From Gemmatimonadota bacterium (GTDB lineage Bacteria > Gemmatimonadota > Gemmatimonadetes > Gemmatimonadales > GWC2-71-9), in contig QHVB01000028.1 of NCBI GenBank assembly GCA_003222195.1, positions 1 to 64,000 of the forward strand: a stretch of DNA of 64,000 nt. The letters run 5' to 3'. The position numbers were made by a program, and so were the translations under genes. Of this stretch, positions 34,368-42,518 are shown piece by piece (the stretch's first letter is position 1; every line of letters begins with the position of its first letter). The notes beneath the pieces were generated by a model. The model had not been told where the DNA came from. It was given only the letters and a program-made list of their open reading frames with translations, and made no database searches.

Positions 34368-36923
34368 ATGATGCCGCTGAGCCGCCGCGCTCGCGTCCTG
34401 GCCAGCGTCGCCGGTCTGTCGCTGCTGGCGATGGTGCTCCGCTACGCGTTCCCCGCGAATGCGCGGCGCACCGTTGTCCTCATCAGCGATCTCTCCTGGA
34501 CGTGGGCCGCCGCCTTCGCGGCGTACGCCTGCTTCGCATCCTCCCGCTGGGTCACCACATCGGAGCAACGCCGCGCGTGGCGCTGGATCGGCGCCGGCTG
34601 CGCGTCGTTCTTCACCGGGCAGCTGGTGTGGAACTATTACGATCTCATTCGCGGCGCGCCGCCGTATCCCTCCCTGGCCGACGTCGGATTCCTCGGTTTG
34701 TACGCGTGCCTGATCGCGGGTCTCGTGACGCTGGTCCGCGGCCAACCCGCGCGCCGCACCGATCCCGAGCTCGTCCTCGATACCGTGCTCGTGACGTTCA
34801 CGGTCGGCGCCCTTGCGTACGAGTATCTGCTTGAGCCACTGCTGACCGCCGGCGCGCCGGTCTCCGCCGCCGCGCTCGTGACGAGCATCGGTTGGTCGAT
34901 CGGCGCCGTCACGGTGCTGTGGATGATTCTGATGCAGATGCTGCGCCGCCCGGTGTTCCCGGCCGCCACGGCGGCGCTCCTGCTGCCGGCCGTGATCGCA
35001 TTCGTGATCGGCGACCAGGTCTACGCCGTGGTCGCGCTGCGGGGCACGTACCAGGCCGGCGGATCGCTCGACCTCACCTGGGACGTCGGGTTGCTGCTGA
35101 TCGCGGCCGCCGCCGCCGTCGCACCCGACTACGCGCAGCATCTCCAGCGCGGGCGCTCGCCGACCACCGAGTCGAGCACCGCGGCACGCTTCATCGCTCT
35201 GGTCATCGGCCTGGCCGCTATGACCGGAATGGCGATCGGCGCCGTGCTGCACGCCGCGCCGGAGCCGGACGAGGCCGTCATCATCGGCATCGGGATGGCG
35301 ATCATCGCCGCCCGCGTGCTCTACTCCCTCGGCGTGAGCCGACGCTACGCGCAGATCCTCGAGGATGAAGTGGCCAACCAGACGCGCTCGCTTATGAGCT
35401 CGCTGGGAGCGACGGCATCGGCCGAGCGCAATTTGCGTCTGCTGATGGAGGCCGTCCCGGAGGCGATTACGGTGGTGGACCGTGACGGCCACGTCCTCGA
35501 CGAGAATGCGGCCGGTCGGACGCTCGTACACGCGTTCCCGGGGGAAGCGAACGCCGGCGGGAAGCGAGCGGGCTTCGGGTGGCTGGAAGGACCCGCCTCC
35601 CGCATCGCGCGGGAGAACCTCGCGGCGGCGTTTGACGGCGAGCTGCGGCGCTTCGAGGTGCCGTTCCAGCGGCCCGACGGCAGTGAGGGGACCGGCCAGG
35701 TGCTGCTCGCGCCGGTGCGCGAGGCCGGGCGCATCCCGAAGGTTCTCGCGCTCATCCGCGACATCACGGACCAGCGGCGGGCCCAGACCCAGCTGCAGCA
35801 GGCCGAGAAGCTCGCCGCCCTGGGACAGCTCGTGAGCGGGGTAGCGCACGAGATCAACAATCCCGCCGCCATCATCTCGGGGTTCGCACAGACCCTGCTG
35901 CTCGATCAGCTCACACCGGAGCAGCGCGAAACAGTCCAGATGATGTACGACGAGGCGACGCGCATCGGCCGGATCACCTCCAACCTGCTCGCATTCGCCC
36001 GCGCGGGCAGCAAGGAGCGCACGCTGGTCGAGCTCAACGAAATCGTGCGCCGGACGTACGCGCTGCGCTCCTACCATCTGACCACGCTGAACATCACGGT
36101 GAACCTCGAGCTCGAAGACGCGAACCCGAAAGCGTGGGCGAATGGATCGGAAGTGCAGCAGATGCTGCTGAATCTGCTCATCAACGCCGAGCAGGTGTTG
36201 ACGACCATGTCAGGCCGGCGGGCGATCACGATCCGCACCGCGCTCGCCGGTGACGAAGGCGCCTTGCTGGAGGTGGCCGACACCGGCCCCGGCATCCCGA
36301 CCGACATTCAGGACAAAATCTTCGATCCGTTCTTTACGACCAAGCCGGAGGGCGCGGGGACGGGGCTCGGGCTCTCGATTTGCTACGGCATCGTCCACGA
36401 CCACGGCGGCCGCATCTCGGTTCACTCAGTCCCCGGACAAGGCGCGACGTTCAGCATCGCCTTGCCGCGCGACGCGCGCGCACGCCCGCGCACGACCCCC
36501 CCGCCGATGCCCGTGCCCGCCGAAGCCCGCGAGCCGGACGGGAAACTCTCCGTGCTGCTGATCGACGACGAAGAGGGGCTGCGCCGGGCGGTCGTGAGTT
36601 TTCTGAAGCGCCGCGGCATGCACATCGTGGCGGTGGAAGATGGCGGCGATGCGTTGCGGGTCCTGCGGCGCGAGCGCTTCGACGTGATCGTATCGGATGT
36701 TCGGATGCCCGGCATGAGCGGCGGCGAGTTTCTGGAGCGCCTCCGCCGCGAGTACCCGGCCATGGTGAACCGGCTGATCTTCACGACCGGCGACACCTTC
36801 GCCGCGGACACGTCCACCTTGCTGCGTGACGCCGGTGTGCCGTCGCTGGTGAAGCCGTACGATTTCTCCAAGCTGGAAACGGTCCTGCGCGAGGTCGCCG
36901 AGTCGGCTAGAACCTCGATTTGA
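34368..36923 (+). CDS. Membrane hybrid histidine kinase with receiver domain
   Basis: 851 residues. Eight to nine membrane helices (1-320) form an unrecognised sensor; a PAS domain (about 350-470), HisKA with phospho-accepting His494 (GVAHEINNPAA), HATPase_c (about 600-705; DTGPGIP, TGLGLSICYGIVHDHGG) and a C-terminal receiver (about 725-845; phospho-Asp777 in SDVRMPG, KPYDF) follow. It senses a membrane-associated signal and relays phosphate to its own receiver and then to an unknown output. No DNA-binding regulator is adjacent. It overlaps the usher gene's 3' end by 17 bp, convergently. Confidence 0.9.
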   Translation: MMPLSRRARVLASVAGLSLLAMVLRYAFPANARRTVVLISDLSWTWAAAFAAYACFASSRWVTTSEQRRAWRWIGAGCASFFTGQLVWNYYDLIRGAPPYPSLADVGFLGLYACLIAGLVTLVRGQPARRTDPELVLDTVLVTFTVGALAYEYLLEPLLTAGAPVSAAALVTSIGWSIGAVTVLWMILMQMLRRPVFPAATAALLLPAVIAFVIGDQVYAVVALRGTYQAGGSLDLTWDVGLLLIAAAAAVAPDYAQHLQRGRSPTTESSTAARFIALVIGLAAMTGMAIGAVLHAAPEPDEAVIIGIGMAIIAARVLYSLGVSRRYAQILEDEVANQTRSLMSSLGATASAERNLRLLMEAVPEAITVVDRDGHVLDENAAGRTLVHAFPGEANAGGKRAGFGWLEGPASRIARENLAAAFDGELRRFEVPFQRPDGSEGTGQVLLAPVREAGRIPKVLALIRDITDQRRAQTQLQQAEKLAALGQLVSGVAHEINNPAAIISGFAQTLLLDQLTPEQRETVQMMYDEATRIGRITSNLLAFARAGSKERTLVELNEIVRRTYALRSYHLTTLNITVNLELEDANPKAWANGSEVQQMLLNLLINAEQVLTTMSGRRAITIRTALAGDEGALLEVADTGPGIPTDIQDKIFDPFFTTKPEGAGTGLGLSICYGIVHDHGGRISVHSVPGQGATFSIALPRDARARPRTTPPPMPVPAEAREPDGKLSVLLIDDEEGLRRAVVSFLKRRGMHIVAVEDGGDALRVLRRERFDVIVSDVRMPGMSGGEFLERLRREYPAMVNRLIFTTGDTFAADTSTLLRDAGVPSLVKPYDFSKLETVLREVAESARTSI

Positions 36924-39474
36924 GCCGAAGTTCCAACCCATCCCGTCCGATCCCGTTTGCGGTGGGCGCCAGCGTGAAGCGCAGCGGTTCCGCATCGACG
37001 GCGAGCGCATCGAGCACTCGCTCGTCGACCGACAGCTCATAGTCACCCGGCTTGACGCCCATCAGATAAAACCCGCCGTCGTTGAAGGTCACCAGCGTGC
37101 GCTGGACCCCCCGCTGGCGGTCGGTCAGAATGAGCGTGACACCGCCGACCCCCCCCCCGGAACCGCTGCGCACGACACGCCCCTCGATAACACCCGCCTC
37201 GACCACCGGGATCTCGAGACTCCGGAACCGGTTTGGACCCGGCACGATGCTGGTCCGCGCGAACAACGGCACCAAGAGCGGCGACTCGAGCGAGAGCGAG
37301 TCGAGGCTCACCATGACGGGCTCGAACGGCACGAGGTCCCAGACGTGATACGCCCCGGCAGAGTCGGTCCGCGCGGACAGTGACCCGATGAGCACGCGCG
37401 CGTTCACGATCGCCGGCTCGCCGGGGTCGCGGATGCCGTTGGCGTTGACGTCGAGGTACACGCGGCCCGACAGTCCCGAGCGCTCCAGCGAAGGACCAGG
37501 CGCGACGCCGAGACGGTCGGTGCGGCGGTCCCACAGCACTGATCCCTGCACGAACTGCGTCGCGTTCACCGGCTGCCCCGGTGGCGCCGATACGGCGGTG
37601 ACACTCCGCAGGGCCGAGAAGTACGATGTGATCGTGACGGTGTAGGTGGGCCCGGCGTCCCCCCGCATCCAATGGGCGCCGACTTCGAGCCGCACACCGC
37701 GCGCGACGGGATGGGCCGCGAACGCCGACCAGGACGCCAGGCCAGCCTGGCGTTCCACTTCGGTGTTGGTGCGCACCAGCGTCTGACTGAGGAAGGCCCC
37801 CCAGCGTGGCCGCGGCATCATGAAGGTCGACAGCCCCACGAACTCGCGGTCACCGATGGCCGGGCCATGTTCGGTACGCGCATAGGGGAGGATCCGCACT
37901 TCGTCCGTTTGCAGCGACGCGCCGAGGCGCGTCCGCGTCAGCACTCCGACGTCGCTTTGGATCCGCTCGAGCCGGCCGTCGAAGAAGAAGAAACCGTGGC
38001 TCGTGGCGGGCCGCCAGAAACCAGTGAGCGTCATCTGGTTGCGGAGGCCCGGCACGGCGAGGACGGAGGCCGAGTCGTGCGCGAAATGCACGTACTCCCC
38101 TTCGAACCGCAGATCGACGGAGGGCTCGTACCGGAGCGCCCCACGCACGAAGCCGGCACCGACGAGCTCGCTTTGTGTCGACCAGGCGTTGGTCGGGTTG
38201 CCCACGAGCGCCACGTAGGGGTGCGTGCGATCGGGCAGTGAATCGCGCCAGAATTGATCGACGCCGCCCTGCACCGTCCACCGCCGGTTCGCCCCATATC
38301 GGAGATCGAGATTCGCCGTCGCGTTGCAGGTGAACGACGGCTGCGGACAGCGGCCACCGGAGAGGCCGTACTCGAACTGCCGCGCGGGAAGCAGCTCGTT
38401 CAATACACGGTAGGTCCGGTTGAACTCGCGGATCTCACCGAACGGGCCGTACGCCACAAAATCGACGGGATTCTCGCCGTAACGCACCGGCAGATCGATT
38501 GCGAAGCCGCCGCTCGCGTTCGCGGAATCGAACGCGACAAGCTCACCGCCGCGGTATGCCTCCACCGACCAGCCCGGCTCGAGACTCCCGGCGTAGCGGA
38601 GCGAGCCGACGAGCGACGGGCGGACGAACGGCGCGTTGGTGATCGCGATGCCCTCGAGCGGGCGCGAGCGCGGGCCCGACGACGGCGCGTCGCCGAGATG
38701 CAGCTGCTTCACCCAGCGATTCTCGCGCCACACGCCGGTCCACGACGCGTCAATGTGCACGCGACCGAGCTCCGCCGGTCCCACGCTTTGCCCGAGCATT
38801 TCGAGCGAGCCGCCGCCGACGTCGGCGCCGACCCCGAATCCGTACGTCGATCCCGCGAACGGATCGCTCGAGGGTGAAAAGAGCGAGTAGTCGATGACGA
38901 CGCCATCCCACGACGGCCGCTGCAGGCCCAGCGTGACGTCAGGTCGCATCCCGTCCGGACGCCGCAAGTACGCCTCGCGAGCGGCTTCGCGGCGCAGGCG
39001 AACCGCGATCGGCAGCGTGCTCGGATCGACGACGGTCGCCGTCAGGTCCGACCAATCCACGACGAACATCACGCCGAGCAGGTCGCCCAATCGCTCGCTG
39101 CCCACATACAGCTCGGGCGTCTCGAATCGAATGAATTCGCGCTCGATGCGCACGCGACGATCGCCGTATTCCATCGAGTCGCTGCGTGGATCGATCACGA
39201 TGCGGCGGTTTCCAGGGTCGACGGTCGCTTCCAGCCGTCCATCCGGCGTCAGCCGGTGACGGATCTCGGCGAGCTGAAAAAACTGCGACAGCGGCAGCAG
39301 GACCTCGGACCGGACGCGATAGGCCTGCAGGGTCGTGCCCGTAATCCGGCCGATCCGGAGATCGACGACGACCGCTTCCGGTGCAGTATCGCGAGGAGCC
39401 TGTTGGGGGGGGGGCGAGGGGGGCGACACGTGCAGCGCGGCCACCAGCAGGAGAGGCGCCTGCACGAGGAACAT
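36907..39474 (-). CDS. Usher-like outer-membrane assembly protein with C-terminal Sdr/carboxypeptidase-like domains
   Basis: 855 residues. A signal peptide is followed by a Pro-rich stretch and small repeated alpha/beta units (YVGSERLGDLLGV). From about 255 the order LHLGDAPSS...LEGIAITNAPFVRP...LRYAGSLEPGWSVEAYRGGELV...GGFAIDLPVRYGENP...RTYRVLNELLP follows the FimD-type usher barrel and plug: secretion-channel strands, plug, then the post-plug strand. From about 670, GRVYLDVNANGIRDPGEP and two later beta-domains replace the usual usher C-terminal domains. The gene follows three subunit genes and a chaperone-like gene in one operon. Usher assignment rests on pattern and context. Confidence 0.7.
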   Translation of the reverse strand: MFLVQAPLLLVAALHVSPPSPPPQQAPRDTAPEAVVVDLRIGRITGTTLQAYRVRSEVLLPLSQFFQLAEIRHRLTPDGRLEATVDPGNRRIVIDPRSDSMEYGDRRVRIEREFIRFETPELYVGSERLGDLLGVMFVVDWSDLTATVVDPSTLPIAVRLRREAAREAYLRRPDGMRPDVTLGLQRPSWDGVVIDYSLFSPSSDPFAGSTYGFGVGADVGGGSLEMLGQSVGPAELGRVHIDASWTGVWRENRWVKQLHLGDAPSSGPRSRPLEGIAITNAPFVRPSLVGSLRYAGSLEPGWSVEAYRGGELVAFDSANASGGFAIDLPVRYGENPVDFVAYGPFGEIREFNRTYRVLNELLPARQFEYGLSGGRCPQPSFTCNATANLDLRYGANRRWTVQGGVDQFWRDSLPDRTHPYVALVGNPTNAWSTQSELVGAGFVRGALRYEPSVDLRFEGEYVHFAHDSASVLAVPGLRNQMTLTGFWRPATSHGFFFFDGRLERIQSDVGVLTRTRLGASLQTDEVRILPYARTEHGPAIGDREFVGLSTFMMPRPRWGAFLSQTLVRTNTEVERQAGLASWSAFAAHPVARGVRLEVGAHWMRGDAGPTYTVTITSYFSALRSVTAVSAPPGQPVNATQFVQGSVLWDRRTDRLGVAPGPSLERSGLSGRVYLDVNANGIRDPGEPAIVNARVLIGSLSARTDSAGAYHVWDLVPFEPVMVSLDSLSLESPLLVPLFARTSIVPGPNRFRSLEIPVVEAGVIEGRVVRSGSGGGVGGVTLILTDRQRGVQRTLVTFNDGGFYLMGVKPGDYELSVDERVLDALAVDAEPLRFTLAPTANGIGRDGLELRLKSRF

Positions 39475-39477
39475 GGG

Positions 39478-39990
39478 TTACTGGTAGACGAGCGAGACGA
39501 TGACGTTGCCCTGGTAGATCCCGGGCTTGGCCGCGACAGCAGGCGCGACGGTGCCGCCGATCCAGACGTACATGGTGGGATTCGCCGGTGGCCCGAACCG
39601 CCCGACGGAACCGAGCGCAGGGTTGAACACGGTGCCGCCCACCGGATTGTTCGTGGAGCGTCGCCAGATCGCCGCGAGCGCACTGAACGCAATCGGCATG
39701 GTGGAGCCCGGCAGCGCTTGAATGTTGGTCAGCTGGGTCGGCAGCGTGAAGCTGATGATCACGAACGCGTTGGCGCTGCCGCTGACTTGCCACTCACCGG
39801 CATTCACCGCCGTGGGCAAGATCGTGCTGGGAACGCCCTTGATCACCGTCCCAAAGTTCAGGTCGCGCAGCGTGGAGATCGTCATCCCCACGGTGACGAC
39901 AACGGCGTCGGCCGATACCGAAGAACCGGCCTGGGCGGCCGCGCGCGCGGCCAACCCGACGCACAGCGCCAACACGAGCGCCTTTCTCAC
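39478..39990 (-). CDS. Secreted pilus-type subunit C (DUF4402-like)
   Basis: 170 residues. Signal peptide ends AAA-QAG. The mature protein begins with an alternating hydrophobic strand (SSVSADAVVVTVGM) like a chaperone-usher donor strand, then LRDLNFGTVIKGV, the motif shared by all three subunits, and ends IYQGNVIVSLVYQ. It is a beta-sandwich by pattern. GTG 39990 overlaps the chaperone stop (GTGA); 3 nt separate its stop from the usher ATG. Probably an assembled fibre subunit. Confidence 0.72.
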   Translation of the reverse strand: MRKALVLALCVGLAARAAAQAGSSVSADAVVVTVGMTISTLRDLNFGTVIKGVPSTILPTAVNAGEWQVSGSANAFVIISFTLPTQLTNIQALPGSTMPIAFSALAAIWRRSTNNPVGGTVFNPALGSVGRFGPPANPTMYVWIGGTVAPAVAAKPGIYQGNVIVSLVYQ

Positions 39991-40844
39991 GGAACGACCA
40001 GCCGCACCGAATCGCGAACCGCGGGAGCCTTCAGCACCACCATCGGATCGAGATCCTCGCGCTCGGCGACGACTTCGTAGCGCAGCCAGTATCGCCCGCG
40101 CGGTAATCCGGGCTGGGGAATCGCGCTCGCCAGACGCGGCTGCATCGCGATGTACACCCCAATGGGGGACGCAAACGTCGTCACGACCGAATCACCGACG
40201 CGCTGCGCATGGACGGCACCCGTCGAATCCACCAGCGTTTCGCGAATCATCCCGATGAAGGCCGCGTTGCCGCGACGCTCGAGCTTGCTCCGGGTGATCA
40301 GCGAATCCCCGACGATCTGTGCAGTGACCTGAGACAGCGTCACCCCCGTACTGACGGGACCCTTGCGGTAGTTCACACCAATAATCGTGCGGACCTCGAG
40401 GGTGAGGCCGACCTGAATCGCCGTCGTGTCGGCGACGCCGGTGATGGGCACGCGTCCTGCCTGCGCCGCGATCACGAGGCGGAGCCAGTATTCCCCGTCG
40501 GGTAGACCGGCCGGCGGGCGGGCCAGGAGCCGCACCGTCTGACGCTCGCGTGGTCCGACCGTCAACCGGCGCGGGAAAGCCTGAATCCACCCGAGGGCCG
40601 AGACGGTCGAATCGCGCCTCAAGGTGTCGAGCATGATCCGGCCGGTCGAATCGGTGGTGGGATATCCGAAAATCGTCGAGATCGCCACTTCGACAGGTTC
40701 GGTGCCGGGATTGTACAGCAGCACGGACCCGCTGCGCAGGCGGTGATCGATGAAGACCGCGTGCGGCGCGACCATAACACCCTGCGCCGCCAGCGAGGCG
40801 GTGCCGAGAGCGAGCGTGACGGCGATAGCGAGCGTGCGCATCAT
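39987..40844 (-). CDS. Periplasmic chaperone-like protein of the chaperone-usher locus
   Basis: 285 residues, longer than PapD (about 240). Signal peptide ends LAA-QG. Two beta-sandwich domains are suggested: the first has VLLYNPGTEPVEVAI and a G1-like strand block RLTVGPRERQTVRLLARPP with DGEYWLRLVI, which resembles the L-P-x-D-R-E-S-x-F-W-L-N region of fimbrial chaperones; the second ends YWLRYEVVAE. It should cap subunits in the periplasm. ATG 40844 overlaps subunit B (ATGA). Confidence 0.7.
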   Translation of the reverse strand: MMRTLAIAVTLALGTASLAAQGVMVAPHAVFIDHRLRSGSVLLYNPGTEPVEVAISTIFGYPTTDSTGRIMLDTLRRDSTVSALGWIQAFPRRLTVGPRERQTVRLLARPPAGLPDGEYWLRLVIAAQAGRVPITGVADTTAIQVGLTLEVRTIIGVNYRKGPVSTGVTLSQVTAQIVGDSLITRSKLERRGNAAFIGMIRETLVDSTGAVHAQRVGDSVVTTFASPIGVYIAMQPRLASAIPQPGLPRGRYWLRYEVVAEREDLDPMVVLKAPAVRDSVRLVVP

Positions 40845-41302
40845 AGCACCGTGACCGTGAGGATGAGTGTGGCCGTGTATGCCCCGGCGCGCTGGTTCGT
40901 CGTCGGATTCGCGGTGGCACCGACAAAGACGGACGCACGACCATTATTCGGGACCGTCGCCGTGAACGGCTGCTTCGGATCGAATCCCACCTGGCTCCCA
41001 ATCGCTTGTGTCGCCGAAAAACCCGCGTCACCCGCTCCAAAACTGATCGGCATCAGCGCGCCGCCCGGGCCGGTCATCGCGACCGGCAGCACAAACGTGA
41101 GTAGCACGGGACCCTTGGGCCCTCTAATGTCGATCTGTCCGCTGTTGGCGGGGTCGGTCCGCAACACGACGCGTGGCACGCCCGGCAGGACGGCACCGAA
41201 CGTCACGCCGCGGATACCCGTCACCGTGAGCGCCCTGCCCTGCGCGCGAAGCGGCACGGCCAGCAGCACCACGGCGATCACGACCCACCACTTCCGTTTC
41301 AT
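40841..41302 (-). CDS. Secreted pilus-type subunit B (DUF4402-like, short N-terminus)
   Basis: 153 residues from ATG 41302 (GTG 41311 adds three). Signal peptide ends LRA-QG. The shared motif VTFGAVLPGVPRVV is present, but only about 11 residues precede it in the mature protein against 24-28 in subunits A and C, so the donor-strand-like extension is missing. It ends YTATLILTVTVL. A subunit without a donor extension would be expected at the tip or as a terminator of a fibre. Confidence 0.7.
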   Translation of the reverse strand: MKRKWWVVIAVVLLAVPLRAQGRALTVTGIRGVTFGAVLPGVPRVVLRTDPANSGQIDIRGPKGPVLLTFVLPVAMTGPGGALMPISFGAGDAGFSATQAIGSQVGFDPKQPFTATVPNNGRASVFVGATANPTTNQRAGAYTATLILTVTVL

Positions 41303-41328
41303 GGTTTGCACGCGTCTCCTCGCGACAG

Positions 41329-41361
41329 CGCCGGCAGAGGAATTTGCATCCCCTGCCGGCG
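41329..41361 (-). promoter_or_regulatory. Hairpin between subunit A and subunit B genes
   Basis: The 90-bp gap between the first and second genes of the operon holds a 13-bp stem with one mismatch (CGCCGGCAG/CTGCCGGCG core, loop ATTTGCA). No T-run follows. In many fimbrial operons such a stem protects the major subunit mRNA or lowers downstream expression. Confidence 0.6.
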
Positions 41362-41392
41362 CGCCATCAGCCCGACGCCAAAGACTCCTAGC

Positions 41393-41890
41393 TTAGTAGA
41401 CCACCGTCATGACGATCGAACCCGTGTAGACGCCCGCCGCCTGGTTCGTCGCCGGCTGCACCTGCGCGCCAATCCAAACCCACAGCTGGCCGGATGCGTT
41501 CAGGCTCGGGCTCACGCCCACCGACGGAGGAAAGCCAATCCCACCGGTCTGCGTGCTGTTCTGAGCATGCACACCAGCGTAGCTCACGATCGGCATGGTG
41601 TTACCACCAGAACCGAGCGTGGCGGGGAGCGTGAACGACAGGGTTACCTGAGTGCTTGCCTGGCCGCTGATGTCAAAGCGGCCGGCGTTCGCGAGGTCCA
41701 TAGCTACGACCGTCTTGTTCACGCCCGGGAACACGTTCCCGAAGCTCAACTGCTGAGCGCCAACCACGTTGATCGGCGTCTGCACGGTTGCCGTCGCCGT
41801 GATGCTGGCGTTGTTCGTCTGGGCCTGGAGCGTCGTGCCCGTCAGAACGAGGGCGGCAACGACCAGGGACAGCTTCGTGATGCTGCGCAT
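41393..41890 (-). CDS. Secreted pilus-type subunit A, probable major subunit (DUF4402-like)
   Basis: 165 residues. ATG 41890 has AGGAGT 4 nt upstream; signal peptide ends LQA-QT. The mature N-terminus NASITATATVQTPINVV is a classic alternating donor-strand-like segment, followed by LSFGNVFPGVNKTV and the C-terminal strand VYTGSIVMTVVY. First gene of the operon, set apart from the rest by a hairpin and preceded by a sigma-54-like promoter, so it is likely the most abundant subunit. Confidence 0.75.
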   Translation of the reverse strand: MRSITKLSLVVAALVLTGTTLQAQTNNASITATATVQTPINVVGAQQLSFGNVFPGVNKTVVAMDLANAGRFDISGQASTQVTLSFTLPATLGSGGNTMPIVSYAGVHAQNSTQTGGIGFPPSVGVSPSLNASGQLWVWIGAQVQPATNQAAGVYTGSIVMTVVY

Positions 41891-42245: not shown

Positions 42246-42518
42246 ATGCGGTTCGGGATCGTAGCGGTTCTGGTGGTTGGCGCGCTGTCGCTGATGGGGC
42301 GGGATGCAGAAGCCCAAGCTCGTGGCACCCTGCAAGCAACCGCGACCGTGGTCGACACCCGCCAAGGCTTTGAGGCTATCTCGGCCGTCCGGCAGGCGGT
42401 TAGCGCTTCCAGAATCGAGAGCCAGCATGCTGTCGCGACAGTGGCGCAGATTTCGACCGAGCGCCCCGCCTCGAAGCCGAGCACGATGATCGTGACGGTC
42501 GACTTTTCGAGGAACTAG
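42246..42518 (+). CDS. Small secreted protein, possible pilus accessory
   Basis: 90 residues. ATG 42246 follows GGGGAGCAGGCA; the signal peptide ends AEA-QA. The mature N-terminus RGTLQATATVVDT resembles the donor-strand segment of subunit A (SITATATVQTP), and the C-terminus STMIVTVDFSRN looks like a closing beta-strand; the middle is helical and polar. I know no family for it. It is divergent from the chaperone-usher operon and shares its regulatory region, so a role as a minor component or regulator of assembly is possible. Confidence 0.6.
   Translation: MRFGIVAVLVVGALSLMGRDAEAQARGTLQATATVVDTRQGFEAISAVRQAVSASRIESQHAVATVAQISTERPASKPSTMIVTVDFSRN

Follow-up and report, generated by a model that had tools for sequence, protein, structure and literature searches.

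Chaperone-usher pili are classed as alternative, classical and archaic, three groups that comprise six clades (PMC9452303). Among the archaic systems, Csu of Acinetobacter (PMC9452303, PMC4654587) combines a chaperone, a plugged usher with two C-terminal domains and Spore-coat-U pilins, and its chaperone, CsuC, holds the carboxylate of the subunit through Arg89, Tyr196 and Arg174 (PMC4654587). Among the classical systems are Fim of E. coli K-12 and the flexible Saf and Afa fibres, in which SafD is a single-domain minor subunit that caps the tip of a polymer of SafA, a subunit that bears an N-terminal extension (Nte) (PMC5700814).

Here we describe an operon from a soil bacterium of the Gemmatimonadota (GenBank assembly GCA_003222195.1) that, with high probability, specifies a chaperone-usher fibre system belonging to a lineage that is separate and undescribed. 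The operon lies in contig QHVB01000028.1, positions 1 to 64,000 of which, the whole stretch of DNA that was analysed, are referred to as the window. The window system appears to share with Csu a chaperone, a plugged usher, two C-terminal usher domains and pilins related to Spore-coat-U, and its chaperone has candidates for two residues of a non-classical carboxylate anchor (the Arg of domain 1, strand F, and the Tyr of domain 2). It differs from Csu in that its pilins are DUF4402 proteins that lack a cysteine pair, the N-terminal domain of its usher is unrecognisable, its C-terminal usher domains are SdrD_B/CarboxypepD_reg-like, no gene for a two-domain tip adhesin follows the usher, a single-domain subunit without an Nte is encoded upstream of the chaperone, and the operon is accompanied by a stem-loop and a divergent gene for a small secreted protein. 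With Fim it shares the same parts and an usher that is co-linear from the barrel to CTD2 (E 6e-11), whereas its pilins have no detectable direct similarity to those of Fim, the Arg8 position of the chaperone is unconserved and there is no lectin-type adhesin. Like Saf and Afa, which belong to the classical systems, it would work as a polymer of major subunits with an Nte, topped by a minor single-domain subunit. In the open papers that we searched there was no mention of DUF4402 (PF14352), and none linked chaperone-usher systems with carboxypeptidase regulatory-like proteins.

Organization of the operon

Five open reading frames on the minus strand, running from 41890 to 36907 and transcribed in the order subC, subB, chaperone, subA and usher, are found where the first-pass annotation had placed an operon of three secreted subunits, a chaperone-like protein and an 855-residue usher-like barrel. 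The features of the locus are as follows.

41393 to 41890, minus strand: subC, the first and probably major DUF4402-like subunit, with an N-terminal extension
41328 to 41362, minus strand: GC-rich stem-loop with perfect pairing, conserved, in the interval that separates subC from subB
40841 to 41311, minus strand: subB, a DUF4402-like subunit without an N-terminal extension, predicted to form the tip
39987 to 40844, minus strand: periplasmic chaperone of 285 aa, with profile matches to archaic and classical chaperones
39478 to 39990, minus strand: subA, a DUF4402-like subunit with a donor-strand-like N-terminal extension
36907 to 39474, minus strand: usher-like outer-membrane protein of 855 aa, aligned by hhalign with archaic and classical ushers
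38410 to 38610, minus strand: putative plug domain within the usher (residues ~289-355), an island in the AF2 model that is co-linear with the plug region of FimD
36955 to 37485, minus strand: probable equivalents of usher CTD1 and CTD2, with the SdrD_B and CarboxypepD_reg matches
42246 to 42518, plus strand: small divergent secreted protein of 90 aa, in the same place in 15 loci

The first-pass annotation had also called the five genes coupled, which is true of the last four: subB overlaps the chaperone gene by 4 nt, the chaperone gene overlaps subA by 4 nt, and the gap between subA and usher is 3 nt. The first gene, subC, is in contrast separated from the other four by 81 nt that contain the stem-loop. 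(Note that neither this stem-loop nor the small divergent gene had been included in the first-pass annotation.) All five products have signal-peptide-like starts, as read by eye, and an AGGAG is present a few bases 5' of the subC ATG at 41890. The operon is flanked by an unrelated convergent histidine kinase gene and, past the small divergent gene, by a YdjM-like gene. In the source genome as a whole the usher is present in a single copy, DUF4402 matches at E<=0.001 are confined to the operon, and no PF00577 usher was found.

The large protein resembles ushers

The domains that can be delineated in the 855-residue protein are a signal peptide, an unusual N-terminal domain (residues ~33-160), a predicted barrel, a plug (~289-355) and C-terminal domains (~664-840), and we take the protein to be, on the strength of its profile alignments, an outer-membrane usher with a plug and C-terminal domains. 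In hhalign comparisons, the Gemmatimonadota usher family matched archaic ushers with an E of 1.3e-17 over 675 columns and the classical ushers of E. coli K-12 with an E of 6.1e-11 over 592 columns, and the alignments to known ushers were co-linear through the barrel, the plug and both C-terminal domains. Reversed archaic and classical usher profiles, used as controls, gave no match. (Note that the highest-scoring of the reversed controls, the one against the Pseudomonadota set, gave an E of 7e-4, and weak hhalign values are to be read against this noise level.) The PF00577 profile was reached by five of 46 members of the usher family (best 0.0014). A single-sequence Pfam search of the window protein revealed no usher domain.

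That result of the single-sequence search, together with a standard annotation of the homologues as 'carboxypeptidase regulatory-like' or hypothetical, is what one would expect if the large protein were a TonB-type, autotransporter or other non-usher barrel and its neighbours were unrelated secreted Ig proteins. The profile of the family, however, matches ushers at E 1e-17 and does not match the TonB receptors FhuA, FepA and CirA, its plug aligns to that of known ushers, and the neighbouring genes of the operon code for a PapD-like chaperone and pilins related to SCPU. Judged by sequence profile, we regard a non-usher barrel, including the plain TonB-type barrel without a plug against which the first-pass annotation had cautioned, as extremely improbable.

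The first-pass annotation had further described both the N-terminal and the C-terminal domains of the usher as unlike those of known ushers, and this description appears to hold for the former but not for the latter. In known systems the usher N-terminal domain recruits chaperone-subunit complexes. When the N-terminal region was compared alone, it gave an E of 0.005 against archaic N-terminal domains, which is inside the noise of the reversed controls, and did not match classical N-terminal domains; the archaic and classical N-terminal domains match one another with an E of 1.7e-7. Judged by these profiles, the region cannot be recognised as an N-terminal domain of the kind found in known ushers. 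The C-terminal region matches CarboxypepD_reg (6.2e-10) and SdrD_B (1e-6) in Pfam. Because a domain-only profile of this region also matches archaic CTDs (E 6.3e-7), the SdrD_B and CarboxypepD_reg matches are most simply read as divergent CTD1 and CTD2 beta-sandwiches rather than as foreign domains.

Searches of PDB sequences with the usher and chaperone profiles gave generic or chance matches only. The AlphaFold model of the usher, for which the alignment consisted of 3-4 near-identical sequences, was of low confidence (mean pLDDT 29.8), and its sole confident island is the plug, with six strands. When submitted to Foldseek, this island matched the middle (plug) domain of the Caf1A usher (3fcg; prob 1.00, E 0.07-0.12) and also other beta-sandwich domains; the likeness to Caf1A fits an usher plug and is suggestive only. 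Two cysteines just past the plug, C376 and C383 (window ~38326-38349), are nearly invariant in Gemmatimonadota ushers and could form a disulphide.

The chaperone has features of archaic chaperones

The 285-aa protein, which had been called periplasmic chaperone-like, proved on profile comparison to be a PapD-like periplasmic chaperone. Although it had no Pfam match by itself, PapD_N was detected in 13 of the 44 homologues, the best E being 1.2e-6, and the family matched archaic chaperones with an E of 1e-10 and classical/alternative chaperones with an E of 1.6e-7 in hhalign. Residue R122 is invariant in all 44 homologues and is paired by hhalign with the Arg that never varies among the archaic chaperones (CsuC Arg89; domain 1, strand F), and Y231, which is kept in 42 of the 44, falls at or within one residue of the position of CsuC Tyr196. 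The position of the classical Arg8 is occupied by H, T, P or Q. The carboxylate anchor thus looks non-classical and of the archaic type, an assignment that is partial because an equivalent of the third archaic residue, Arg174, is not evident in the alignment of the 44 homologues. In the Pseudomonadota homologues the anchor Arg is two residues earlier in the motif. The AlphaFold model of the chaperone was likewise of low confidence (mean pLDDT 37.5; alignment of 3-4 near-identical sequences).

Two classes of subunit and a candidate donor strand

All three subunits match DUF4402 in Pfam (E 2.3e-6 for subC, 4e-5 for subA and 1.6e-3 for subB), as the earlier label 'DUF4402-like' implied, although subC alone, with 28.8 bits, exceeds the gathering score of 25.2 bits (subA 24.7, subB 19.5). 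Moreover, extension-bearing (Nte+) subunits matched Spore-coat-U pilins with an E of 1.5e-7, and Pseudomonadota DUF4402 proteins matched the same pilins with an E of 1.1e-9, the reversed controls being nil in both cases. The first-pass description of three secreted, DUF4402-like subunits is confirmed. Classical pilins were reachable only via Spore-coat-U (Spore-coat-U against FimA, E 1.1e-7); compared directly with classical pilins, the window subunits gave no match (hhalign E 0.07, prob 0.8%). The window subunits also did not match SCPU (PF05229) at E<=1, whereas archaic controls gave 1e-37, and they contain no cysteine pair.

The length of the N-terminus, measured from the predicted signal cleavage ([AGS]Q rule) to the conserved FG motif, is bimodal across subunits, being mostly 24-30 residues or 9-17 residues. 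In the window, subB has 14 residues ahead of the FG motif, and subA and subC each have 26. Of the 38 operons in which two or more subunits could be measured, 35 contained exactly one short-form subunit (table count), and in 32 of those 35 its gene immediately preceded that of the chaperone. Among 56 long-form N-termini, hydrophobic residues (I/V, A/V, A and V) occupy four alternating positions in 91-100% of the sequences, and the positions between them are polar; the alternation score of these 56 sequences was 4.05 as compared to 2.63 +/- 0.10 in shuffles, above all 200 of them (maximum 2.95). The alternating long-form N-terminus is, as far as sequence can tell, a donor-strand pattern. Since a subunit without an N-terminal strand can only accept one, we predict that subB is the tip subunit; subC is probably the major pilin.

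Distribution and relatives

Searching by profile at E<=1e-20, we found the usher in 59 of 296 sampled Gemmatimonadota genomes (~20%). A chaperone homologue adjoined the usher in 45 of the 50 loci that were examined, several of the exceptions being contig ends, and in most of the 50 there were two, three or four subunit genes, arranged as subunits-chaperone-(subunit)-usher. The survey of gene order across genomes that the first-pass annotation had called for thus found the order kept, and it recurs at usher identities down to ~22%. Given the occurrence of the usher in these genomes and the recurrence of the gene order, the operon is not a chance arrangement.

Polaromonas, Sphingopyxis, Novosphingobium and Pseudoalteromonas plasmids carry loci with the same gene order (DUF4402-chaperone-usher), which are uncharacterised and belong to the same family as the window operon. 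Four of these plasmid records label the chaperone as fimbrial or molecular, but none of the ushers is named as such: they appear under 'carboxypeptidase regulatory-like' or 'SdrD B-like', or else as hypothetical proteins. The Gemmatimonadota and Pseudomonadota usher profiles match one another with an E of 1.2e-69 and are one family, and usher identity to the Polaromonas sequence is 21-39%.

Three further observations were made on individual loci. Another Gemmatimonadota genome carries a genuine archaic (Spore-coat-U) chaperone-usher operon (L090; G068:C1:3700500-3718500), which provides the only PF00577 match over the cut-off among 150 Gemmatimonadota genomes. In two divergent loci (L078 and L079) a subunit-like protein of 350-361 aa adjoins the usher and is possibly a two-domain adhesin. 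On a MAG contig (L031:971-2161), an in-frame fusion joins the chaperone to a subA that has lost its signal peptide and extension, as a result of either a deletion or an assembly error.

Relationship to archaic, classical and alternative systems

In an unrooted IQ-TREE phylogeny of 38 archaic, classical, Gemmatimonadota and Pseudomonadota ushers, the archaic and classical ones together were separated from the Gemmatimonadota and Pseudomonadota set by long branches with support of 100/100. Consistent with this, archaic and classical ushers match each other with an E of 2.7e-52, far closer than either is to the clade described here (1.3e-17 and 6e-11, respectively). EcpC, the one sequence with which the alternative class was compared, gave an E of 0.37 against this usher family, whereas archaic ushers matched EcpC at 3.5e-6, and it was rejected as a relative.

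We entertained the idea that the operon encodes an ordinary archaic (sigma) chaperone-usher system, the proteins of which have merely diverged. The usher, chaperone and subunits all score best against their archaic counterparts and the anchor of the chaperone looks archaic-type, as this idea would predict. The tree, however, sets the clade opposite archaic and classical ushers together, and the profile values do the same; the window usher falls under the PF00577 cut-off and outside the archaic clade. Moreover, an SCPU domain and a cysteine pair are both lacking from the subunits, no gene for a two-domain tip adhesin is present in or beside the window operon, and the genuine archaic operon L090 is clearly different. 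An ordinary archaic system is therefore an unlikely explanation, and the best reading is the one given by the first-pass annotation, namely an uncharacterised, divergent chaperone-usher system. We lean towards the further view that the clade constitutes a fourth major chaperone-usher group beside the classical, alternative and archaic ones, widespread among Gemmatimonadota, found also in several classes of Pseudomonadota and having its own usher N-terminal domain, DUF4402 pilins of its own, an extension-less single-domain tip, an RNA stem-loop specific to the operon and a dedicated accessory protein that is small and secreted.

Judged by profile and tree, the usher and fibre proteins form a branch of their own, which is unstudied and is overlooked by standard annotation. 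A lineage outside the archaic and classical pair would serve as a reference in asking what donor-strand assembly cannot do without. If our reading is true, the members of DUF4402, a family of unknown function, become pilins, 'carboxypeptidase regulatory-like' proteins are identified as ushers, and surface fibres are revealed in soil and freshwater bacteria in which annotation shows none.

A conserved stem-loop follows subC

The perfect GC-rich hairpin lies ~30 nt past the subC stop and has a z of -3.86 against dinucleotide shuffles. The exact motif is present in one copy in the 3.5-Mb source genome and in 14 of 101 family genomes, one copy each, and in all 14 of the latter it separates the first subunit gene from the second. 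At the corresponding site in more distant operons there are strong hairpins that differ in sequence. Three candidate explanations were rejected: Rfam contained no match to a known RNA, the single copy in the genome argues against a genome-wide repeat, and a scan for T-tailed intrinsic terminators found none, there being no T tract. The stem-loop likely serves to give an excess of first-pilin (subC) output over that of the other genes, a reading based on pilus operons in general.

A model for fibre assembly

We infer that the products of the operon very probably build hair-like surface fibres by the chaperone-usher route known from gut bacteria. Once the subunits had reached the periplasm, the chaperone, with its two domains, would complete the Ig fold of each of them by lending a strand and grip the subunit C-terminus by its non-classical (archaic-type) anchor, and the usher, a plugged outer-membrane barrel, would then take over the chaperone-subunit complexes. 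Lacking an extension, subB could not donate a strand and would be secreted first, so as to occupy the tip. The presumed major pilin subC and the minor subunit subA, at the base or as an adaptor, would follow, each inserting its alternating I-x-A-x-A-x-V strand into the groove of the preceding subunit (donor-strand exchange), and the stem-loop would probably lift the output of subC above that of the other genes. By analogy with the archaic relatives, our guess is that the fibre is a thin filament for surface attachment or biofilm.

Alternatively, the usher-like protein might export the DUF4402 proteins singly or in short complexes, to form a coat on the surface with no donor-strand polymerisation. 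Genes alone were read here, the N-terminal domain of the usher differs from that of known ushers, and three small subunits could make a short tip-like structure, all of which would be compatible with such a coat. The alternating N-terminal strand is, however, conserved in every subunit of an operon except one, the chaperone is of the donor-strand family, and the stem-loop after the first subunit gene suggests bulk output of one polymerising subunit. We give a monomeric coat little credence as compared to fibres assembled by donor-strand exchange.

A small divergent gene accompanies the operon

The mature N-terminus of the 90-aa secreted protein begins QARGTLQATATVVDT, which by eye is like a donor strand. 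The idea that the protein is a mini-pilin found no support: an iterated HMM pulled in subA, yet controlled tests gave no significant similarity, in that a profile of 14 mature small proteins scored real subunits at E 0.2 and shuffled ones at 0.02, and hhalign gave a prob of 9.6% over 14 columns. In 15 Gemmatimonadota loci the gene is divergent and upstream of the first pilin gene, and it is a conserved partner gene of the operon.
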